Source: Sterolibacterium sp. (GTDB lineage Bacteria; Pseudomonadota; Gammaproteobacteria; Burkholderiales; Rhodocyclaceae). From it: a stretch of DNA of 64,000 bases. The position numbers and the translations under genes are program-made. The stretch spans positions 1 through 64,000 of the forward strand of contig JAHRWT010000105.1 in the NCBI GenBank assembly GCA_019105045.1, read 5' to 3'. Within the stretch, counting starts at the first letter, position 1, and every line of letters starts with the position of its first letter. Below are positions 20,114 to 29,520 of the stretch, in pieces. A model generated the notes under the pieces. It saw only the letters and a program-made list of their open reading frames with translations, ran no database searches and was not told the DNA's origin.

Positions 20114-20147
20114 CAAAGACGACCTGCCAGTCGTCTTTGTTTGTGTT
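20114..20147 (+). terminator. Intrinsic terminator of mutL-miaA
   Basis: A 10-base-pair stem, CAAAGACGAC (20114-20123) with GTCGTCTTTG (20130-20139), has a 6-base loop and is followed by TTTGTGTTC. It lies between the convergent stops of miaA and the lipase foldase gene. Confidence 0.75.
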
Positions 20148-21217
20148 CATTTACCCGCCTGCTGCCTTCTGTACAGACTCAGCGCAGCATCAAGCCGCAA
20201 CTGTTCCTGTGGCGTGAATTCGGTTTCGCGCATCTGCTGCCGCACTGCCGAATCAGCCTGGTCATAGCGGGCAATGCGCTGCTGCCACTCAGCCTGCTGC
20301 CGATCAAGCTCGGCCAGGCGCTGGGTGGCTGCCGTACCAAATTCCCTGCTGCGCGCAGCCTGCCGCTCGTCCAATACCGTTGCATCCGCTGTGTGAAATG
20401 CCTCATTCTGTGCCGCGATGCGGGTTGGCAGCAGCGCAGCGTACCGCGCTTCGCGTTGCTCCGGACTGAGCAGCTGGTTGCTCAGAACTTCAAGCCGCTG
20501 CTCTTTTTCAGCCAGACTGAGATCCTCCCGCGCCCGCAAACGCAGGCGCTCGACAGTGAATTGGTCATAACGGTTGTCGTCACCAAACAGCCCATCAACT
20601 TCTGCCGCCGTGAAGTATTTTTCCTGCACGGCCTGACGGGTCAGCAGCGCAGTTTCCAGCGCACCAGCGGTCGCGCTGTAATCCATGTTGAGCGCCTGAG
20701 CCGACTCGCCAGGAAAATTGAGCTGGCCAAGCTGGCCACCACCTCTGGGAGCCGTCATTTGTGCCAGTTCATCACGATAACGCACGAACTGCTCCAGCAA
20801 ATGCAAAGCCTGCGCGCGATATTTTTCTGGTACCCGGTTGACCAGCAAACTGGCCGCATCGAGTCCGGGCCGACCGGCCAGTTGCTCGAAAATACGTACC
20901 AGATCGGCATTCAGCAAGGGATGTTTGCCTCGCCTTTGCCAGTCATTGACATCCAGCACCTGCACATCGATGTCATCAGGCAAAGTATCCGATGCCCGCC
21001 CCTGCCTTCCCTCGGCCATCGCTGTCCCAGAACCGGAGCCCACCGTCAAATCACTGCCATTCGCATGACCTGCGACAACAGCGTAGCCAGGCGAATAGTC
21101 CGAGCCTGGCTGCGGCGGTGGGCGATGATGCCCATGTTGAAAATAGGCAAGCAGCAGCCCCAGAGCCAGCACACAGACAACAACAGCCGCAGCGGCGGCT
21201 ACAACGGGCAAACGCAT
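20147..21217 (-). CDS. Lipase-specific foldase (lipase chaperone), membrane anchored
   Basis: A 356-residue steric chaperone of the Lif family that stays in the inner membrane and helps the adjacent secreted lipase fold in the periplasm. One N-terminal membrane helix (about 4-25) is followed by a Gly/Pro-rich linker and the long helical Lif domain. The family signature around residues 106-118, normally RxxxFDYxLSAxGE-like, reads VRIFEQLAGRPG here, so the Phe is kept but the Asp-Tyr-Leu-Ser part is lost. Its ATG follows directly on the lipase TAA with no gap. Identification rests on the helical pattern, size and the lipase partner. Confidence 0.85.
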   Translation of the reverse strand: MRLPVVAAAAAVVVCVLALGLLLAYFQHGHHRPPPQPGSDYSPGYAVVAGHANGSDLTVGSGSGTAMAEGRQGRASDTLPDDIDVQVLDVNDWQRRGKHPLLNADLVRIFEQLAGRPGLDAASLLVNRVPEKYRAQALHLLEQFVRYRDELAQMTAPRGGGQLGQLNFPGESAQALNMDYSATAGALETALLTRQAVQEKYFTAAEVDGLFGDDNRYDQFTVERLRLRAREDLSLAEKEQRLEVLSNQLLSPEQREARYAALLPTRIAAQNEAFHTADATVLDERQAARSREFGTAATQRLAELDRQQAEWQQRIARYDQADSAVRQQMRETEFTPQEQLRLDAALSLYRRQQAGK

Positions 21218-22222
21218 TTAAAGCCCAAGCTTTTTCAGACGGTTGGCATGTTCGCGATAGATCACTACCGGGCTGACGTCATTGGGTGAAACCAGGCCCC
21301 AGAAATTATTCACTTCATCCAGGTGATTCTGCCGATAGACCCCCAGCTGCCGCCCCAAACGCGATGCACAGATCGAAATCAGGCCGTCATTGGCCGTGCG
21401 GTCTTCCGGATCCAACAACCACATTGCCGGACCAGTCAAGGCAAACACATAATCCAGCGGATCGACATACGTCGTGAAAATCGCATTGCCTGTCCAGGAG
21501 TAATAACGCACGCCATCCACCAGCTCGGGCCCATCCAGCACCTTGCAATCCGCTGGCGGCAACCCTTGCGGGAACTTGGCATTGAACGCGGTCATGCCTT
21601 CCACACTCAGCGCCTCTAAAGACTTGAAGGCATCTTCCGGCGCGTTCTGCTTGCCTGAAAGAAAATCGATCAACTTTGCCAAGCCCTCCAGTCCCCCCTT
21701 GATCACATTGCCCAGAGGTTTACCCTTGAAATTGGTTGCAATGCCCGTCAGCGGCTGACCGCGCGTGTTCAGACCAGCCACGGCCGTGGCCGAAGCCACC
21801 CTGTCGGGCATCACCGCAGCGGCATAGCGAATAGTCGGCCCACCGTGGGAATGGCCAATCAGATTGACCTTTTCAGCCCCCGTGGCCGCCAGCACGTATT
21901 CAATCTGTCTCACCAACTGTTCGCCGCGTTCCTCGGAGGTGTTCAGTCCGGAAACTTCCGCCACATACACCTGGGCACCGCCAGCACGCAAATCGGGTAC
22001 GATCTTGTACCAGTAGTCGATGAACCCATTGAGAATGCTGTCAAAACCCAGCATGCCATGCACCAGAACGATGGGGTATTTCGTGGCGGTATAGCCCGCC
22101 GTCGGTGTGCCAATCGCGGTATTTGCCGGCGCTGCCCAAACCTGCCCTCCGCCAGGCGCCACACCGGCAAAAAGCACCAGCGACAAACCGACCGCTACAG
22201 CCCATTTTCTGCCTGTAAACAT
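21218..22222 (-). CDS. Secreted triacylglycerol lipase (family I, foldase dependent)
   Basis: A 334-residue extracellular lipase. A signal peptide (about 1-31, ending VWA-A) is followed by the alpha/beta-hydrolase core: oxyanion region VHGMLGFDS (54-62), nucleophile S125 in GHSHGG, acid D279 in ANDGLIS and catalytic H300 in NHLDEVN. C226 and C285 are placed like the single disulphide of Pseudomonas/Burkholderia family I.1-I.2 lipases, so export by Sec and a type II secretion system is likely. An AGGAGG Shine-Dalgarno lies 8 bases upstream. Confidence 0.95.
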   Translation of the reverse strand: MFTGRKWAVAVGLSLVLFAGVAPGGGQVWAAPANTAIGTPTAGYTATKYPIVLVHGMLGFDSILNGFIDYWYKIVPDLRAGGAQVYVAEVSGLNTSEERGEQLVRQIEYVLAATGAEKVNLIGHSHGGPTIRYAAAVMPDRVASATAVAGLNTRGQPLTGIATNFKGKPLGNVIKGGLEGLAKLIDFLSGKQNAPEDAFKSLEALSVEGMTAFNAKFPQGLPPADCKVLDGPELVDGVRYYSWTGNAIFTTYVDPLDYVFALTGPAMWLLDPEDRTANDGLISICASRLGRQLGVYRQNHLDEVNNFWGLVSPNDVSPVVIYREHANRLKKLGL

Positions 22223-22550: not shown

Positions 22551-23198
22551 ATGGTTGAGCTTTCTCATCGATACCATCAGACAATCGCGCTGATTGATGC
22601 CTGCAATGCGGCAGATCCGAATCGCGAATTCGACGCTTTGAGCAACATGTTGCTGCCCAAAGAACAGCTCTACGCGCAACGCATGAGCGCAATGCTCGAG
22701 CGCTTCTCTCCGGAAGCAACAGAAACTGCCCGTATTGCCATACGTTCCCAGCACATCCAGCGCTGGAAAATTCCACGCAGCGACTATCCCGCCACACCGC
22801 AAGGTTACAAACAATGGCGCACGCGTCTCTACAGCTTCCACGCCGAAACTGTTGCCGCCCTGATGCAACAGGCCGGCTATGATGAAACCGCCATCGACTG
22901 TGTCAGGATCAGCGTTGGCAAGCGTGGCATCAAGACATATGCCCAGACGCAATTGCTCGAAGATGTCGCCAGCCTGGTCTTCATGGCGCACTATCTGGAT
23001 GATTTCCATACCCGGCATCCGGAATACAACCAGGACAAATGGCGTGACATCCTGCATAAAACCTGGAAAAAAATGTCGCCCGCCGGCCGCCGCTTTGCGC
23101 AGACTGCCATCAACGTGCCAGCCGCCCTCGCCCCTCTGCTGGCAGAGATAACAACTGCAACCGAGCCTGTGCAAGCCAATCTTTCCATGCGCGCATGA
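22551..23198 (+). CDS. DUF4202 family protein
   Basis: A 215-residue soluble protein matching DUF4202 by its N-terminal LIDACNAADPN, LLPKEQLYAQRMS, the RSQHIQRWKIPRSDYP segment (conserved His and Arg/Trp), FHAET and the late LVFMAHYLDDF. The conserved His/Asp residues resemble HD-type metal-binding helices, but the biochemical role is not established. The ATG at 22551 fits family N-termini; starts at 22464 or 22503 are possible. Its stop overlaps the next ATG (ATGA), so it is translationally coupled to a c-di-GMP protein. Confidence 0.75.
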   Translation: MVELSHRYHQTIALIDACNAADPNREFDALSNMLLPKEQLYAQRMSAMLERFSPEATETARIAIRSQHIQRWKIPRSDYPATPQGYKQWRTRLYSFHAETVAALMQQAGYDETAIDCVRISVGKRGIKTYAQTQLLEDVASLVFMAHYLDDFHTRHPEYNQDKWRDILHKTWKKMSPAGRRFAQTAINVPAALAPLLAEITTATEPVQANLSMRA

Positions 23199-25777
23199 GC
23201 AAACCCCCCAGCCAGATGACGGTGTACGACGAACTGCGCAAGGTGATGCTTGAGCAGCGCGCGATTTTTGACAACGTCACCGTGGGAGTCCTGTTTTCAC
23301 GCAACCGTACCGTGATTGCCTGCAATGCTCTGTGCGCGACGACCCTCGGTTACCCCAAGGAAGAACTGATCGGCCTGTCGGGCATGGCGCTTTACCCGTC
23401 GGAAGCAGCCTACCGGCTGATGGCCCGCAAAGCCACGCCGATACTTGCCGCAGGCAAGCCTTTTCACGATGAAATCGAATACCGCCGCAAGGACGGCAGC
23501 ACCTTCTGGGCCCGCACTTCGGCCAAGGCCATCGACCCGCAGCAACCTGCCAATGGCACCATCTGGATCATTACCGACATCACCGAAGAGCGCCGAGTGC
23601 GCGAAGAGCTGGCTGAAAAAACCCACGAACTGGAAGCCGTCTTTGAAACCTCCTTTGTCGGCATTGCCGTGCTGCGCGGAGAAAACATCCTCCGCTGCAA
23701 CCAGCACTATGCCGAACTGATCGGCGTCACGGTCGATGAACTCATCGGCCAGAACATGCGCGCGCTGTATCCGAACGAAGCCGACTACCTCAACTGTCAA
23801 ACCGCCTTTCGTGAAAGCCTTCAACACGGCAACGAGCATCAACTGGAACGCCGTCTTTGCCGCCAGGATGGCAGCCTGTTCTGGGCGCGCCTGTCGGCCC
23901 GGGCCTTTGATCCGGCCAGGCCCGATGATGGCACGGTCTGGATGATCGAAGACATTACCGATCGCAAGAATGCCGACGAACGGGTACGCACGGCACTGAC
24001 AGAACAGCAACTGATCTTCAACAACGCGGCCGTCGGCATGGCTTTCGTTCGCAACCGCATCATCAGCCGTTGCAACCGCAAGTTTGAAGAACTTTTCGGC
24101 TACGCTGAAAACGAACTGATCAACAGCTCGACCCTGATTCTTTACCCCACCTTGCGTGATTACGACGAAGATGGCATGGCCGTCCTCAACCCTCTGCAGT
24201 GTGGCGAAACCGCCATCAGCGAGCGCTTGATGCGTCGCAAGGATGGCAGCCAGCTCTGGATACGCGCTACCGGCCATCGCGCCAACACACCGGATGGCGG
24301 TCTGGATGTCATCTGGATCTACGAGGATGTCACCGAACGTCATCAGGCCGAAGATGCGCTGTTGCGTGCGCATGACGAACTGGAACAACGCGTGGTCGAG
24401 CGGACCTCCGAACTGGCGCGCACCAACAGTCAATTGCAGGAGGAAATCTACGAACGTCTGCAGGCCGAGCAGCGCATCTGGCACGTTGCCCACCATGATG
24501 CCCTCACCGGACTGCCCAATCGCAGCCTGCTGATGGATCGGCTCGACCAGGCACTGACCCAGGCCGCGCGCTCGCAACAGCGGGTGGCCATCATGTTTCT
24601 TGATCTGGATCGTTTCAAGAGCATCAACGACACCCTGGGGCATCATATCGGCGACCTGCTGCTCAAGCATGTCGCCAGCCACCTGCGTGAAGCGGTGCGC
24701 GCCATGGATACGGTCTCCCGCCTCGGAGGCGATGAGTTTGTCGTTGTTCTGCATGAAATCCAGGACATGGATGATGCCGTGCGGGTCGCAGAAAAAATCC
24801 TTGCCCGACTGGCTACGGCAGTCAAACTCGAAGGCCATACCCTTTACGCCACGCCGTCAATCGGCATCAGCCTCTACCCGGATGACGGCAGGGAAGCCTA
24901 TCAACTGATGAAAAACGCTGACACGGCGATGTACCACGCCAAGGAAAGCGGGCGCAACAATTTCCAGCTGTTCACCTCTCAGATGAACGACGAAACCGAG
25001 CGCGTTTTCACGCTGGAACAGCGCATGCGCCGAGCCCTGGAAGCGGGACATTTCGTTCTGCACTACCAGCCATTGTTCGATCACAACGACGGCAACATCT
25101 GCGGCGTGGAAGCACTGGTACGTTGGAATGATCCACAACACGGCCTGATTCCACCGCAGGAGTTTCTTCCCGTTGCCGAGGAAATCGGCCTGATCCTGCC
25201 TCTGGGTGAATGGATACTGCGCGAAGCCTGCCGTCAGCAGATGGCCTGGCAAGCACAAGGGCTGCCGGCCCTGCGCATGTCGGTCAACCTTTCGGCACGC
25301 CAGTTCCGCCAGAAAAGCCTGATCAACACGTTGCAGAACATCCTGACCGAAACCGGCATGAACGCCCGGCAACTGGAACTCGAAATCACCGAATCCTCAT
25401 TGATGCACGATGCGGATGAAACCTTGATCAAGCTGCGCCAGTTAACCGAAATGGGCATCACCCTGGCGATTGACGATTTCGGCACGGGCTATTCCAGCCT
25501 GTCCTATCTGAAAAAATATTCCGTCAACCGTCTCAAGATCGACCGGGACTTTGTCCGCAGTCTCTGCGACAACCAGGACGATGCCGCCATTGTGTCAACC
25601 ATTGTGGCCATGGCCAGCCATCTGGGACTGCATACCATGGCCGAAGGTGTTGAAACCCAGGACCAATTGCAGGCCCTGCTCGACCTGGGCTGCAAGCAGT
25701 TCCAGGGCAATCTGTTCTCCCAGCCTCTGCCGGCGGTGGATGCGGCCCTGCTTCTTGAAAAAGCAGGCAGGCAATGA
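23195..25777 (+). CDS. Triple-PAS diguanylate cyclase/phosphodiesterase (GGDEF-EAL)
   Basis: An 860-residue cytoplasmic signalling protein with no membrane segment. Three PAS domains (about 15-135, 145-255, 265-385; each ends in a D-I/V-T-E/D motif) lead into a coiled-coil linker (about 385-430). The GGDEF domain follows with an intact GGDEF (511-515) and an RxxD inhibitory site (RAMD) five residues before it. The EAL domain has EALVRW (639-644) and DDFGTGYSSLSYL. Both domains keep their key residues, so it may make and degrade c-di-GMP, with output set by the PAS inputs. It is coupled by 4-base overlaps to DUF4202 upstream and the hydrolase downstream. Confidence 0.96.
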   Translation: MSKPPSQMTVYDELRKVMLEQRAIFDNVTVGVLFSRNRTVIACNALCATTLGYPKEELIGLSGMALYPSEAAYRLMARKATPILAAGKPFHDEIEYRRKDGSTFWARTSAKAIDPQQPANGTIWIITDITEERRVREELAEKTHELEAVFETSFVGIAVLRGENILRCNQHYAELIGVTVDELIGQNMRALYPNEADYLNCQTAFRESLQHGNEHQLERRLCRQDGSLFWARLSARAFDPARPDDGTVWMIEDITDRKNADERVRTALTEQQLIFNNAAVGMAFVRNRIISRCNRKFEELFGYAENELINSSTLILYPTLRDYDEDGMAVLNPLQCGETAISERLMRRKDGSQLWIRATGHRANTPDGGLDVIWIYEDVTERHQAEDALLRAHDELEQRVVERTSELARTNSQLQEEIYERLQAEQRIWHVAHHDALTGLPNRSLLMDRLDQALTQAARSQQRVAIMFLDLDRFKSINDTLGHHIGDLLLKHVASHLREAVRAMDTVSRLGGDEFVVVLHEIQDMDDAVRVAEKILARLATAVKLEGHTLYATPSIGISLYPDDGREAYQLMKNADTAMYHAKESGRNNFQLFTSQMNDETERVFTLEQRMRRALEAGHFVLHYQPLFDHNDGNICGVEALVRWNDPQHGLIPPQEFLPVAEEIGLILPLGEWILREACRQQMAWQAQGLPALRMSVNLSARQFRQKSLINTLQNILTETGMNARQLELEITESSLMHDADETLIKLRQLTEMGITLAIDDFGTGYSSLSYLKKYSVNRLKIDRDFVRSLCDNQDDAAIVSTIVAMASHLGLHTMAEGVETQDQLQALLDLGCKQFQGNLFSQPLPAVDAALLLEKAGRQ

Positions 25778-26673
25778 ATGGCCAACATGCCACGACGGCC
25801 GCAGACCGAATGGCCTTTTTGCGCATTTCTTGTTTACCACTCATCTGCAGCCTGCTTGCCAGCCACCTGCTGGCCGCGTGCATCAGCCTGCCCTCCCTGG
25901 CCGAGCGCCGCGAACTGGCCGACACGCTGGCAGCAGCCCACCATTGGCAAGCAACGATGTTTTCCACCGACAGATTTGACTTGCTGGCCTATCTGCCACA
26001 GCAGACCAACCCGGTTGATGAACTGACAATCTACATCGAAGGCGACGGCTTTGCCTGGCAGACACCCGCCACGCCTTCACCCGATCCCACGCCGCGCAAC
26101 CCGCTGGCATTACGTCTGGCACTGAACCAGCCCGAAGGAACGGCCATCTACCTGGCTCGCCCCTGTCAATACACAGACGCTGTGGCAAGCGGCTGCAATG
26201 AACGTTACTGGACTGAGCAGCGTTTTGCCAACGACGTGATCCTTGCCACGAGTCAGGCCATCGATAAACTCAAATCCCGGTTCAACGCCCAGCGACTGAC
26301 ACTGGTTGGCTATTCCGGCGGCGGTGCCGTAGCCACCTTGGTCGCAGCGCGCCGGGACGATGTCAGACGCTTGATTACCCTTGCCGGCAACCTCGATCAT
26401 CGCGCCTGGACCACACATCATCGCCTTCAGCCACTTGCCGGCTCACTGAATCCGGCCAATGTATCTCCACTGCCGGCCAGCATCCAGCAAACCCATCTCG
26501 TTGGCGGCAAGGACAGAATCATTCCGGTGTGGATTGCCCAGAATTTTTCTGCCGCCTACGAGGCCAGGCAGCGTCCGGTCGTCCGCATCATCGACAATTA
26601 CGATCACAACTGCTGCTGGGCAGACGACTGGCCACAGCTCTGGCGCAGCCTGCAGCAGGAGAAATCTCGATAA
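25774..26673 (+). CDS. Alpha/beta-hydrolase lipoprotein
   Basis: A 299-residue predicted lipoprotein: a hydrophobic N-terminus ends in the lipobox LLAAC (C36), followed by a serine-hydrolase fold. The nucleophile is S181 in GYSGGG, the acid probably D247 in GGKDRIIP and the base H278 in DNYDHNC. The substrate is unknown; an esterase or peptidase role at the envelope is possible. Paired cysteines (131/141 and 280/281) could form disulphides. It is translated from an ATGA overlap with the GGDEF-EAL gene. The leader before C36 is long for a lipoprotein, so an ATG at residue 13 may be the true start. Confidence 0.8.
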
Positions 26674-26740: not shown

Positions 26741-27085
26741 ATGACAACAATGACGACTGCAAGCGGCCTCGGTATTGAGGACATCAAAATCGGTGATGGC
26801 GCAGAAGCGCAGCCCGGCCAGCTGGTGACAGTCCATTACACCGGCTGGCTGACTGACGGACGCAAGTTTGATTCGAGCAAGGATCGTTTCGACCCTTTTA
26901 CCTTCCATCTTGGCGGACGCGAAGTGATCGCCGGCTGGGATGAAGGCGTTGCCGGCATGAAAGCAGGCGGCCTGCGCAAGCTGACCATACCGCCGGAACT
27001 TGGCTACGGTGCCCGTGGCGCAGGAGGCGTCATTCCTCCCAATGCGACCCTGTTGTTCGAAGTTGAGCTGCTGAGCGTTGCCTGA
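26741..27085 (+). CDS. FKBP-type peptidyl-prolyl cis-trans isomerase
   Basis: A 114-residue single-domain FKBP that catalyses prolyl isomerisation. The active-site residues are in order: [35 protein letters not shown] and [23 protein letters not shown]. It has no signal peptide or targeting extension, so it acts in the cytoplasm. An AAGGAG Shine-Dalgarno sits 8 bases before the ATG. It lies 67 bases after the hydrolase gene and converges on the histidine kinase gene. Confidence 0.95.
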
Positions 27086-27145: not shown

Positions 27146-27892
27146 TCAGGGCAGAATCAGGGTCAAGCGCGCACCTTGGCCGCCCTCCGCCGCAAAGCCA
27201 TCATTGGCCAGTTCCAGCCGCCCCTGCTGCCCCGCCCGCCTGCTCTGACCAGACGGCACAGCATGACGGCTGGCAATCAGCCGGGCAAAACTGAGCCCCA
27301 GCCCGGTGCGCCCCCCCGTCCCACTGCCCGCCTCTCCGATCCAGCCATTGCACGTACTGCCAAAATCACCCAGTATCTCCTCGGGATATCCCGGACCATC
27401 GTCTTCGACGGTGAACCGCATTCCTTCGGCCATCAGATGCCCAATACTGAAGCGGACTTTTCTGTGTGCATGACGCACTGCGTTGCGCAAGGCGTCCAGT
27501 AGCGCGAACTTGACCAGGTAGGCATCAAAAACCCAGGGGCCGATTTCTTCAGCCACGGAAAAATCGGTTTCAACGCGAATGACATCCTCCGCCGATCGGG
27601 AGACCGCAAATTCCGCCATGACCTCAGCCAGAAAATCCGGGAGCAGATGATCTTCTATGCTCATGCGCAAACTGCCTTCACCGGCACGATAGAACGCAAG
27701 CAATTCCACCAATTGCCCGGTGAGCAAACCAACAAGCGCCTCTGCCTGCTTGAGTGCGGGGCAATCCGCAGGCTGCACACTGTGCACCTGCTCCCGCCTG
27801 GAAAAATCCTGGCGTGCCCTGGCAAGCAGGACACCCAGGCTATTCAGTGAATTCTTGGCATCATGAATGGCCACAGCCACCAGAGAATCCAC
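27146..27892 (-). CDS. Small soluble histidine kinase
   Basis: A 248-residue kinase core without any N-terminal sensor domain. It starts almost at the H-box (AIHDAKNSLNSL, H10), then has the N-box LRNAVRHA near 135, G1 box DDGPGYP near 163 and G2 box GLGLSFA near 199. The HDxKN form of the H-box resembles HisKA kinases with Asp after His. The GTG start lies 2 bases after the response-regulator stop, so it is co-translated with that gene. With no sensor of its own, it probably takes input from a partner, perhaps the TPR part of the response regulator. Confidence 0.85.
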   Translation of the reverse strand: MDSLVAVAIHDAKNSLNSLGVLLARARQDFSRREQVHSVQPADCPALKQAEALVGLLTGQLVELLAFYRAGEGSLRMSIEDHLLPDFLAEVMAEFAVSRSAEDVIRVETDFSVAEEIGPWVFDAYLVKFALLDALRNAVRHAHRKVRFSIGHLMAEGMRFTVEDDGPGYPEEILGDFGSTCNGWIGEAGSGTGGRTGLGLSFARLIASRHAVPSGQSRRAGQQGRLELANDGFAAEGGQGARLTLILP

Positions 27893-27894
27893 AA

Positions 27895-29520
27895 TCAGCC
27901 TTCCTTGCTGATGCGCGGCAAACCCGGAGGCGCCACTTTGTCATAAAAAAGTATGGCAGCAGCAAGTTTGGGATGCTCCGGATTGGCCTGGATGGCTCGC
28001 TCGACATAACGTCTGGCATCGGCAAGCTGCCTCAAATCCATGCCTTGCTGAGAGATGCGCATCATGATCGCCTGAGCCGCGTTGAGCAGTACCTGGGCGT
28101 TATTGTGCAAACGCTCTGCCGCTTCGACCAGCATGACGATTGCCTGATCAAGTTTGCCTTCCTTGGCCAGCGCAACCGCATCATTATTGAGGCGGATCAT
28201 GCGCGTTCGGGTTGCTTCGATGAACTCGACACCTTCATCTTTCAGACCGGCAACTTCAAATACCTTGCGCGCCCTCGCAAGCACCTGTTCATTTTCATGA
28301 TGATCTTCGGCAATTGTTTCTATGATCTGCCGGGCTTCACCTTCCTGTCCAATCGCAAAACATGACTGAGCCACTTCCAGCGCCGTATTGGCATCCAGCT
28401 CACCTTCCCGCTGCAAGGCTACCGCCTGGGCGTAGGCAGCTTCTGCAGCTTCAAGATTGCCGGCACTGATCTGCACCTGACATTCAAGTGCCGCCTGACG
28501 TGCCTTGAGATTCGGCGTATGGGAAAAATGCTTGCCCATGTCATTGACAGCCGTCAGGGCTTCCTTGTGCTTGCCCTGCTCGATACAGCTGCGCGAAAGT
28601 GCCGCATAGTCATCATGGCTTTTGAAAAAACCGGTGCGATCCTTTTCAACAGCAACCCGCAAGGCAGTTTCAGCTCGCCCAAAATCTGCATTTTCCAGCG
28701 CCAGGTTACCCAGCTCGCGATGACGCTGTGTAGAGGCAGAAACCTTCAGCGCGCGTTCAACCATCGCCTGTGCCGCAACCTTGTCGGTTTTTTCAAGAAT
28801 CTCGGTCAAAGCATCATAGGCCGCCAGATAATTGGGATAGGCCTGCAGCGAACTTTCCAGCGTGACTTTTGCTTCCTCCAACTGCCCCAAAGACTTCAGT
28901 GCAAAAGCCTTGCCCACCACGGCCCATGGCACCGAGCGTTGCGCAAGAATATTGTCGTAAAAAGCGTGTGCCTCATCATTCCGACCACATTTCAGCAACA
29001 AATCGCCCTTGATGCGCAGCAAATCCATTGCGTAGCGCCCGCCTTTGGCAAGCAGCGCATCACAAGCCTGCAACGCTTTTTGCGGATCGCCGCCCTTGAT
29101 GAGCATATGCTGGTAAACGGATTTCAGCGCTTCCTTTTTTTCCAATATGCGCAACAATCGTGTTGCCATGGTGTCAGCAGTAAATGGCTTGAGCAAATAA
29201 TCATCCGGCGAATACTCTGCTGTTGTTGAAACCTGTTGATAGCCAGACTCACCGGTTACCATCAGAAAAGCCGATGACAGTGGCAGCAGGTTACGACGGC
29301 GTATCAGTTCCAGAAACTGTTGACCATCGGCACCCTGACCGAGATTGTAGTCACAGACAATGATGTCGAATTTCCGTGCCGTCAGATTGTCAATGGCCTC
29401 CTTGATGTTGCGCACACTGACGCAGCTCTGCACACCGCACTCTGACAACTGTATGCGCAGGGAATTGCGCATCTCAGCATTGTCATCAATCAACAAGCAG
29501 GTTTTATTACTTAAATTCAT
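27895..29520 (-). CDS. TPR-containing response regulator
   Basis: A 541-residue protein with an N-terminal receiver domain (phospho-acceptor D57 in IVCDYNLG; acidic pair D12/D13; T89; K111 in LLKPF) fused to a long array of tetratricopeptide-like helical repeats from about 140 to 530. There is no DNA-binding or enzymatic output domain, so output is presumably through protein-protein contacts. A similar architecture occurs in several proteobacterial regulators of unknown output. It is followed at once by its kinase gene and lies downstream of pilQ, with a terminator-like hairpin just before its start. Confidence 0.9.
   Translation of the reverse strand: MNLSNKTCLLIDDNAEMRNSLRIQLSECGVQSCVSVRNIKEAIDNLTARKFDIIVCDYNLGQGADGQQFLELIRRRNLLPLSSAFLMVTGESGYQQVSTTAEYSPDDYLLKPFTADTMATRLLRILEKKEALKSVYQHMLIKGGDPQKALQACDALLAKGGRYAMDLLRIKGDLLLKCGRNDEAHAFYDNILAQRSVPWAVVGKAFALKSLGQLEEAKVTLESSLQAYPNYLAAYDALTEILEKTDKVAAQAMVERALKVSASTQRHRELGNLALENADFGRAETALRVAVEKDRTGFFKSHDDYAALSRSCIEQGKHKEALTAVNDMGKHFSHTPNLKARQAALECQVQISAGNLEAAEAAYAQAVALQREGELDANTALEVAQSCFAIGQEGEARQIIETIAEDHHENEQVLARARKVFEVAGLKDEGVEFIEATRTRMIRLNNDAVALAKEGKLDQAIVMLVEAAERLHNNAQVLLNAAQAIMMRISQQGMDLRQLADARRYVERAIQANPEHPKLAAAILFYDKVAPPGLPRISKEG

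Follow-up and report, generated by a model that had tools for sequence, protein, structure and literature searches.

What does a run of three overlapping but unrelated genes stand for: a dedicated signalling system or ordinary local gene order? The question is raised by a 64,000-nucleotide stretch of contig JAHRWT010000105.1 from a Sterolibacterium sp. genome of the family Rhodocyclaceae (assembly GCA_019105045.1), referred to here as the window. Its forward strand carries a gene for a DUF4202 protein, a gene for a protein with PAS, GGDEF and EAL domains (hereafter GGDEF-EAL) and a gene for a lipoprotein alpha/beta hydrolase, each overlapping the next by 4 bases. An initial annotation proposed that the three products are made in a fixed ratio and form a cyclic di-GMP (c-di-GMP) module. 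The comparison reported here favours, with good confidence, another answer: the trio is a genuine co-directional run derived locally from a Rhodocyclaceae gene neighbourhood, and not a dedicated three-component system. The three genes are probably carried on one transcript.

The open reading frames, the strands and both ATGA junctions of the initial annotation were confirmed in the sequence (Table 1). The window genome (G000) has three congeners, G001, G002 and G003. The trio order in G003 is identical, with amino acid identities over the aligned codons of 72% for DUF4202, 85% for GGDEF-EAL and 72% for the hydrolase. The start sites match those of the window, and the junctions are ATGA and GTGA, respectively. 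The ratios of nonsynonymous to synonymous substitution (dN/dS) between the two genomes are 0.136, 0.111 and 0.185 in the same order, which indicates purifying selection on all three genes. Since G003 has the same trio with its overlaps and the dN/dS values are low, the trio consists of real genes, and their overlaps did not arise by an accident of annotation.

A 4-base overlap alone is not unusual. A survey of 1,695 species reports that intergenic distances of -4 and -1 are far commoner than any other (PMC10666635). In 118 DUF4202 loci, 123 of 910 co-directional gene pairs overlap by 4 bases, and two successive 4-base overlaps were found in 17 of 621 co-directional triplets; these counts leave out the window, G003 and repeats. 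Some loci represent the same contig twice, and such repeats were recognized by an identical DUF4202 protein. With repeats and G003 included, the counts become 142/1008 pairs and 24/686 triplets. Within the window, 5 of 38 pairs were counted by a simple gene caller, which chose other starts, so that both trio junctions went uncounted. Scans for promoters and terminators performed no better than shuffled sequences (3 against a mean of 1.7, and 4 against 5.4, respectively).

The conservation of the trio was assessed in 121 genomes of the family, the same set being searched for DUF4202, the GGDEF-EAL protein and the hydrolase. The GGDEF-EAL search, at a threshold of 1e-150, gave 35 matches, with loci for 30 of them. 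The hydrolase search gave 34 matches, 28 of them strong; the six weak ones (G008, G021, G302, G320, G362 and G365) were excluded from the counts. Follow-up genome searches overlapped with genomes already counted and were used solely for G000 to G003 and L191. The full trio was found in G000 and G003 only. DUF4202 is present in 43 of the 121 genomes, and in 22 of these, from 13 genera, the GGDEF-EAL gene lies on the same strand within 2.3 kb. Another six carry the GGDEF-EAL gene unlinked and 15 have no match to it at the threshold, while seven family genomes have a GGDEF-EAL gene without a DUF4202 match. The hydrolase behaves differently. It occurs together with the GGDEF-EAL gene in 12 genomes and adjoins it only in G000 and G003, that is, in two of the 28 genomes with a strong homologue. 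In the remaining 26, the GGDEF-EAL gene is either far off or on another contig (10 genomes) or has no match at the threshold (16 genomes).

The congeners give the same picture. G001 has DUF4202 and the GGDEF-EAL gene separated by a 30-base gap, and no hydrolase match; in G002, DUF4202 is followed by an FKBP-type prolyl isomerase gene, no GGDEF-EAL match was found, and a hydrolase homologue of 44% identity lies elsewhere in the genome. The short overlaps of the trio are thus kept in G003 only. The initial annotation had suggested looking for co-occurrence of the three families, and this was borne out for the first two genes and not for the third. It had also stated that it would fail if the trio occurred in no other genome or if close relatives lacked the overlaps. 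G003 spares it that outcome, whereas G001 and G002 have no trio.

A recurrent order was seen in 120 distinct DUF4202 loci, from which repeats had been removed as above: DUF4202, one or two 3-hydroxyisobutyrate-dehydrogenase-like genes, PAS-GGDEF-EAL, FKBP and often a class I/II aminotransferase. The dehydrogenase-like genes are NAD-binding and beta-hydroxyacid-dehydrogenase-like, as read on example loci. Where DUF4202 is followed downstream by a GGDEF-EAL gene, 21 of 26 loci carry one or two dehydrogenase genes, and the number between the two ranges from 0 to 2. Such arrangements give no support to production in a fixed ratio. Viewed from the GGDEF-EAL gene, 21 of 30 loci have a dehydrogenase-like gene directly upstream (three of these loci belong to genomes without a DUF4202 match), and 19 of the 30 contain FKBP in the stretch. 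A midpoint-rooted tree was built for 26 GGDEF-EAL proteins. Those of the window, G003, G001 and L191 (labelled L191, L024, window and L026), whose loci lack dehydrogenase genes, group together inside dehydrogenase-bearing branches. Because of this nesting, the contact between DUF4202 and GGDEF-EAL in the window appears to have arisen by loss of the intervening dehydrogenase genes. The comparison further suggests that the local rearrangement that produced the trio is recent.

A scheme can be proposed from these observations. The ancestral order would have been DUF4202, one or two dehydrogenase-like genes, PAS-GGDEF-EAL, FKBP and often an aminotransferase. In a Sterolibacterium-like lineage the dehydrogenase genes would have been lost, which placed DUF4202 against the c-di-GMP gene. 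Later, in an ancestor of the window genome and G003, the lipoprotein hydrolase gene would have landed behind the c-di-GMP gene. The PAS-GGDEF-EAL protein may act in the cytosol as a PAS-based sensor and synthesize or break down c-di-GMP, DUF4202 may bind or hydrolyse a small phosphorylated ligand although it lacks the metal site usual for HD proteins, and the hydrolase would act in the envelope on a substrate of its own. The overlaps probably couple translation locally and would imply no shared complex or pathway.

Table 1. Features of the trio and its surroundings in the window.
Feature	Position	Strand	Evidence and remarks
DUF4202 protein	22551-23198	+	215 amino acids; Pfam DUF4202 3.8e-63; AlphaFold2 confidence (pLDDT) 93
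ATGA overlap, DUF4202 stop / PAS-GGDEF-EAL start	23195-23198	+	sequence; ATGA in G003 too
PAS-PAS-PAS-GGDEF-EAL protein	23195-25777	+	860 amino acids; Pfam: three PAS stretches, GGDEF 2.1e-52, EAL 8.6e-74
ATGA overlap, GGDEF-EAL stop / hydrolase start	25774-25777	+	sequence; GTGA in G003
Lipoprotein alpha/beta hydrolase	25774-26673	+	299 amino acids; Pfam Abhydrolase_1 4.3e-6 (27.0 bits; cut-off 25.8)
FKBP-type prolyl isomerase	26741-27085	+	Pfam 8.7e-37; separated from the hydrolase by 67 bases
Lipase and proteobacterial lipase-chaperone pair	20147-22222	-	Pfam; divergent, upstream of the trio
Histidine-kinase-type ATPase gene and receiver-TPR gene	27146-29520	-	converge on FKBP

L025 and L041 likewise have this ATPase and receiver-TPR gene pair after FKBP.

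Several observations weigh against the reading of the trio as a local derivative. In the distance survey, complex subunits make up 30.4% of short-distance pairs in E. coli, compared with 6.8% of distant ones (PMC10666635). Since short-distance pairs are enriched in complex subunits, some interaction among the trio products is possible; an overlap raises the chance of a complex but does not establish one. Of the 43 genomes with DUF4202, 28 have a GGDEF-EAL match, compared with 7 of the 78 that lack DUF4202. This is a closer link than pure accident would produce, although shared ancestry inflates the test. The history is not entirely tidy either: L191 has a weakly supported position in the tree (0.157), L232 is without dehydrogenases separately from the window's group, and L209, in a record titled Sideroxyarcus, has the family order and makes the family-level counts less clean. 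Either the arrangement of DUF4202, dehydrogenase and GGDEF-EAL may extend outside the family or the L209 metagenome-assembled genome (MAG) may be misnamed. Finally, the window's genus is represented by only four genomes, and the window genome is itself a MAG of 2.36 Mb in 121 contigs (84.8% complete, 5.8% contamination); with this and many other fragmented genomes, links across contig ends are missed.

The closest competitor to a local derivative overlaps with it. It holds that even the neighbourhood of DUF4202 and GGDEF-EAL reflects shared descent of a chromosome segment and has no functional meaning. In part of the loci the stretch does extend to unrelated genes, namely CbiX, RND efflux genes, argJ, nitrate reductase and an aminotransferase (several of these names are provisional). 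In a class-level sample of 229 genomes, DUF4202 lies beside varied genes, with no constant neighbour. However, the linkage persists in 13 genera while the number of intervening dehydrogenase genes varies from 0 to 2. Pure neutrality is regarded as a serious but less probable account.

A second competitor depends on what DUF4202 is. The window protein matches Pfam DUF4202 (PF13875) with 213.1 bits against a cut-off of 35.1. A search of one collection of papers found none naming DUF4202 or PF13875, and a sequence search of the PDB with the DUF4202 profile gave only matches at E 0.5 to 1. When the AlphaFold2 model was submitted to Foldseek, the first 15 rows were HD-type proteins, with a best E of only 0.15, and unrelated folds came after them. 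VIA-align returned HD hydrolases, alarmone hydrolases, PDE10 and SidE/Dup domains at Z scores between 12.8 and about 10, a range in which (Z under about 13) helical folds may match by chance or through a common arrangement. YpgQ, Ddi2 and MESH1, which are among the structural matches, are HD proteins. Pfam HD matched neither the window protein (E 1e-3) nor the main-subfamily protein of L075 (E 1), and this counts against membership of the HD superfamily. Because of the ambiguous Z range and the missing Pfam HD match in the main subfamily, a sequence bridge to HD-bearing members matters. Such a bridge was found. The distant members L098, L099 and L101 match DUF4202 at 1e-16 to 1e-18, and two of the three also match Pfam HD over its cut-off. 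The L101 model (pLDDT 93) matches HD structures somewhat better, with a best E of 0.014 that is still above 0.001, and hhalign joins the main subfamily to the HD-bearing members at 95.7% (8.6e-9 for that single comparison). The helical HD-type fold and the sequence bridge together place DUF4202 in the HD superfamily.

The alignment used for the active site contained 115 sequences, 110 from the main subfamily and five HD-bearing, after removal of proteins shorter than 165 amino acids and exact repeats. MAFFT, hmmsearch and hhalign concur that the first His of the HD ligands corresponds to Y41, the HD dyad to Q67-H68 and the last Asp to D138. At these positions the five HD-bearing members carry H, H, D and D. 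In the 110 main-subfamily sequences, Y41, Q67 and H68 are each present in all 110, D138 in 109 and H97 in 104; the invariance of Y41 is partly selected, as one of the search patterns used to gather loci contained it, whereas Q67 and H68 were in no pattern. The full set of H...HD...D ligands of a metal-dependent HD phosphohydrolase is accordingly absent from the window's subfamily. DUF4202 looks like an HD fold that has lost the canonical metal site and strongly conserves the replacement residues. Its casting as a metal-dependent partner is doubtful because the canonical ligand positions hold Y41, Q67 and H68.

On this basis DUF4202 and PAS-GGDEF-EAL could form a functional pair, in which the HD-fold protein binds or processes a nucleotide connected with c-di-GMP turnover (GTP, pGpG or c-di-GMP itself) and the other genes are passengers. 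The linkage in 22 of the 43 DUF4202 genomes fits this idea, as do the nucleotide hydrolases among HD-type folds, the many invariant Arg, Lys and aromatic residues of DUF4202 and the window's group, which has no dehydrogenase between the two genes. The GGDEF-EAL gene, however, was not seen adjoining DUF4202 in the class-sample loci; 21 of the 43 DUF4202 genomes have it unlinked or without a match, and in three genomes without a DUF4202 match it still keeps its dehydrogenase neighbour. Such a pair is considered unlikely. Less probable still, and at present a speculation, is a DUF4202 protein that serves as a phosphoesterase or nucleotide sensor of HD fold, its site rebuilt to work without metal (Q67, H68, H97, E137, D138 and invariant Arg and Lys), and that partners PAS-GGDEF-EAL on a c-di-GMP-related nucleotide in the Rhodocyclaceae.

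The other two products were correctly described at the outset. In the c-di-GMP enzyme, only PAS, GGDEF and EAL domains were found with Pfam. An alignment of 31 rows, in which the window protein appears twice, shows the GGDEF and RxxD motifs in every row and the catalytic residues of the EAL domain in 28 to 30. Because these residues are conserved, both cyclase and phosphodiesterase activities are possible. The hydrolase contains a lipobox, LAAC (C36), a GYSGGG motif (S181), D247 and H278. In 22 rows including the window, C36, D247 and H278 are present in all 22 and S181 in 21, and S181, D247 and H278 would form the catalytic triad. An internal ATG at 25810 is a possible alternative start, which would give a shorter signal peptide. 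A PDB sequence search with the hydrolase gave weak matches only (0.016 and 0.084), and a search of viral contigs found no relative.

The neighbourhood of the hydrolase was examined in 20 loci outside the trio (18 of the 26 strong non-trio matches and two from a further search). An autotransporter-like barrel gene was found in 10 of them (L108, L111, L116-L120, L123, L254 and L255); seven of the 10 barrel genes are confirmed by Pfam, one was scanned without a Pfam match, and the profile used for counting was built from those seven. Since its homologues sit near such genes, the sequence context points to an envelope role of the hydrolase of its own, unconnected with c-di-GMP. Caspase-domain genes were also confirmed near hydrolase homologues, in L116 and L121. 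A fixed-ratio c-di-GMP module with the lipoprotein hydrolase as its envelope input or output and DUF4202 as a metal-dependent partner is very improbable: both overlaps recur in G003 and purifying selection acts on each of the three genes, but the hydrolase joins the arrangement in only two of the 121 genomes, its lipobox probably puts it in a different compartment from the enzyme, in which only PAS, GGDEF and EAL domains were found, and other residues occupy the canonical metal-ligand positions of DUF4202. The comparison lends no support to an envelope hydrolase as input or output of c-di-GMP.

The distribution of DUF4202 outside the trio gives further leads. RuBisCO and SoxB were scored in the class sample minus the window genome (228 genomes); G170, which has a fragment with a stop, was also excluded. 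A RuBisCO-family match is present in 20 of 22 genomes with main-subfamily DUF4202 and in 96 of 206 without it, and SoxB over its cut-off in 19 of 22 and 74 of 206, respectively. The HD-bearing members show no such link (3/5 for each), the RuBisCO link is weaker in the family sample (28 of 43 with DUF4202 against 29 of 78 without), and the window genome has neither match. These are associations only, and shared ancestry may contribute to the counts. When contigs were searched with the DUF4202 alignment, 468 relatives came up and the best 80 entered the analysis; the window protein as sole query gave none. At E 0.1, PADLOC matched neither DUF4202 nor the hydrolase, and a defence role thus has no support.

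Some individual loci deserve mention. In the divergent DUF4202 subfamily, five of six loci (L098-L102) follow a myo-inositol-1-phosphate-synthase-like gene, and L099-L102 also follow a fused NTP-transferase/CDP-alcohol-phosphotransferase gene, as judged from clusters, with Pfam applied to L101 and L102 only. Among the six loci L098-L103, the HD dyad was observed in L098, L099, L101, L102 and L103. Judging by these neighbours, the divergent HD protein could be a phosphatase of an inositol-phosphate solute or lipid pathway. At L044:6561-10004, a CobB/CobQ-like amidotransferase gene and a CysG-type siroheme synthase gene flank DUF4202, and genes further upstream presumably resemble dsrJOP. A siroheme or sulfur role, considered because of the CbiX, CobB/CobQ-like, CysG and TusA-like neighbours (the last name is provisional), was dropped, as no neighbour is kept across the class sample. 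In a Sedimenticola MAG (L204:2414-3016), one DUF4202 gene is split into two open reading frames.

As a three-part system, then, the trio is close to ordinary local gene order. Its value lies in an uncharacterised DUF4202 on an HD fold (meant without reference to a Pfam clan), in which near-invariant replacement of the metal ligands makes the chemistry directly testable. The recurrent gene neighbour of DUF4202 in one bacterial family and the association with RuBisCO and SoxB serve as leads.

The c-di-GMP enzyme and DUF4202 were compared with known systems. The highest-scoring NCBIfam equivalogs of the c-di-GMP enzyme are DibA, PRK10060 and DosP, with which it shares the GGDEF-EAL order and intact residues; it scores far below their equivalog cut-offs and has three PAS domains. 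The DUF4202 model has the overall fold of the HD phosphohydrolases (YpgQ 5dqv, 2pq7, Lin1889 3b57 and the small alarmone hydrolases), and distant DUF4202 members keep the HD dyad. In the window's subfamily, by contrast, the H and H-D of those enzymes are replaced by Y and Q-H, and the last Asp alone is kept. The phosphodiesterase domains of SidE/Dup work metal-free with two His and a Glu. They are structural matches only, covering most of the DUF4202 model at a VIA-align Z of about 10 to 11, and they differ in sequence (6 to 13% identity in the structural rows) and in biology. No match to Pfam HDOD was found for the window protein at E 1e-3. HDOD domains, described in PMC4114195 as HD-related with key active-site residues absent, provide a precedent for HD-derived domains of this kind. 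DUF4202 resembles them in having an HD-derived fold without the canonical residues; unlike them, it is a free-standing protein in which the substituted residues hardly vary.

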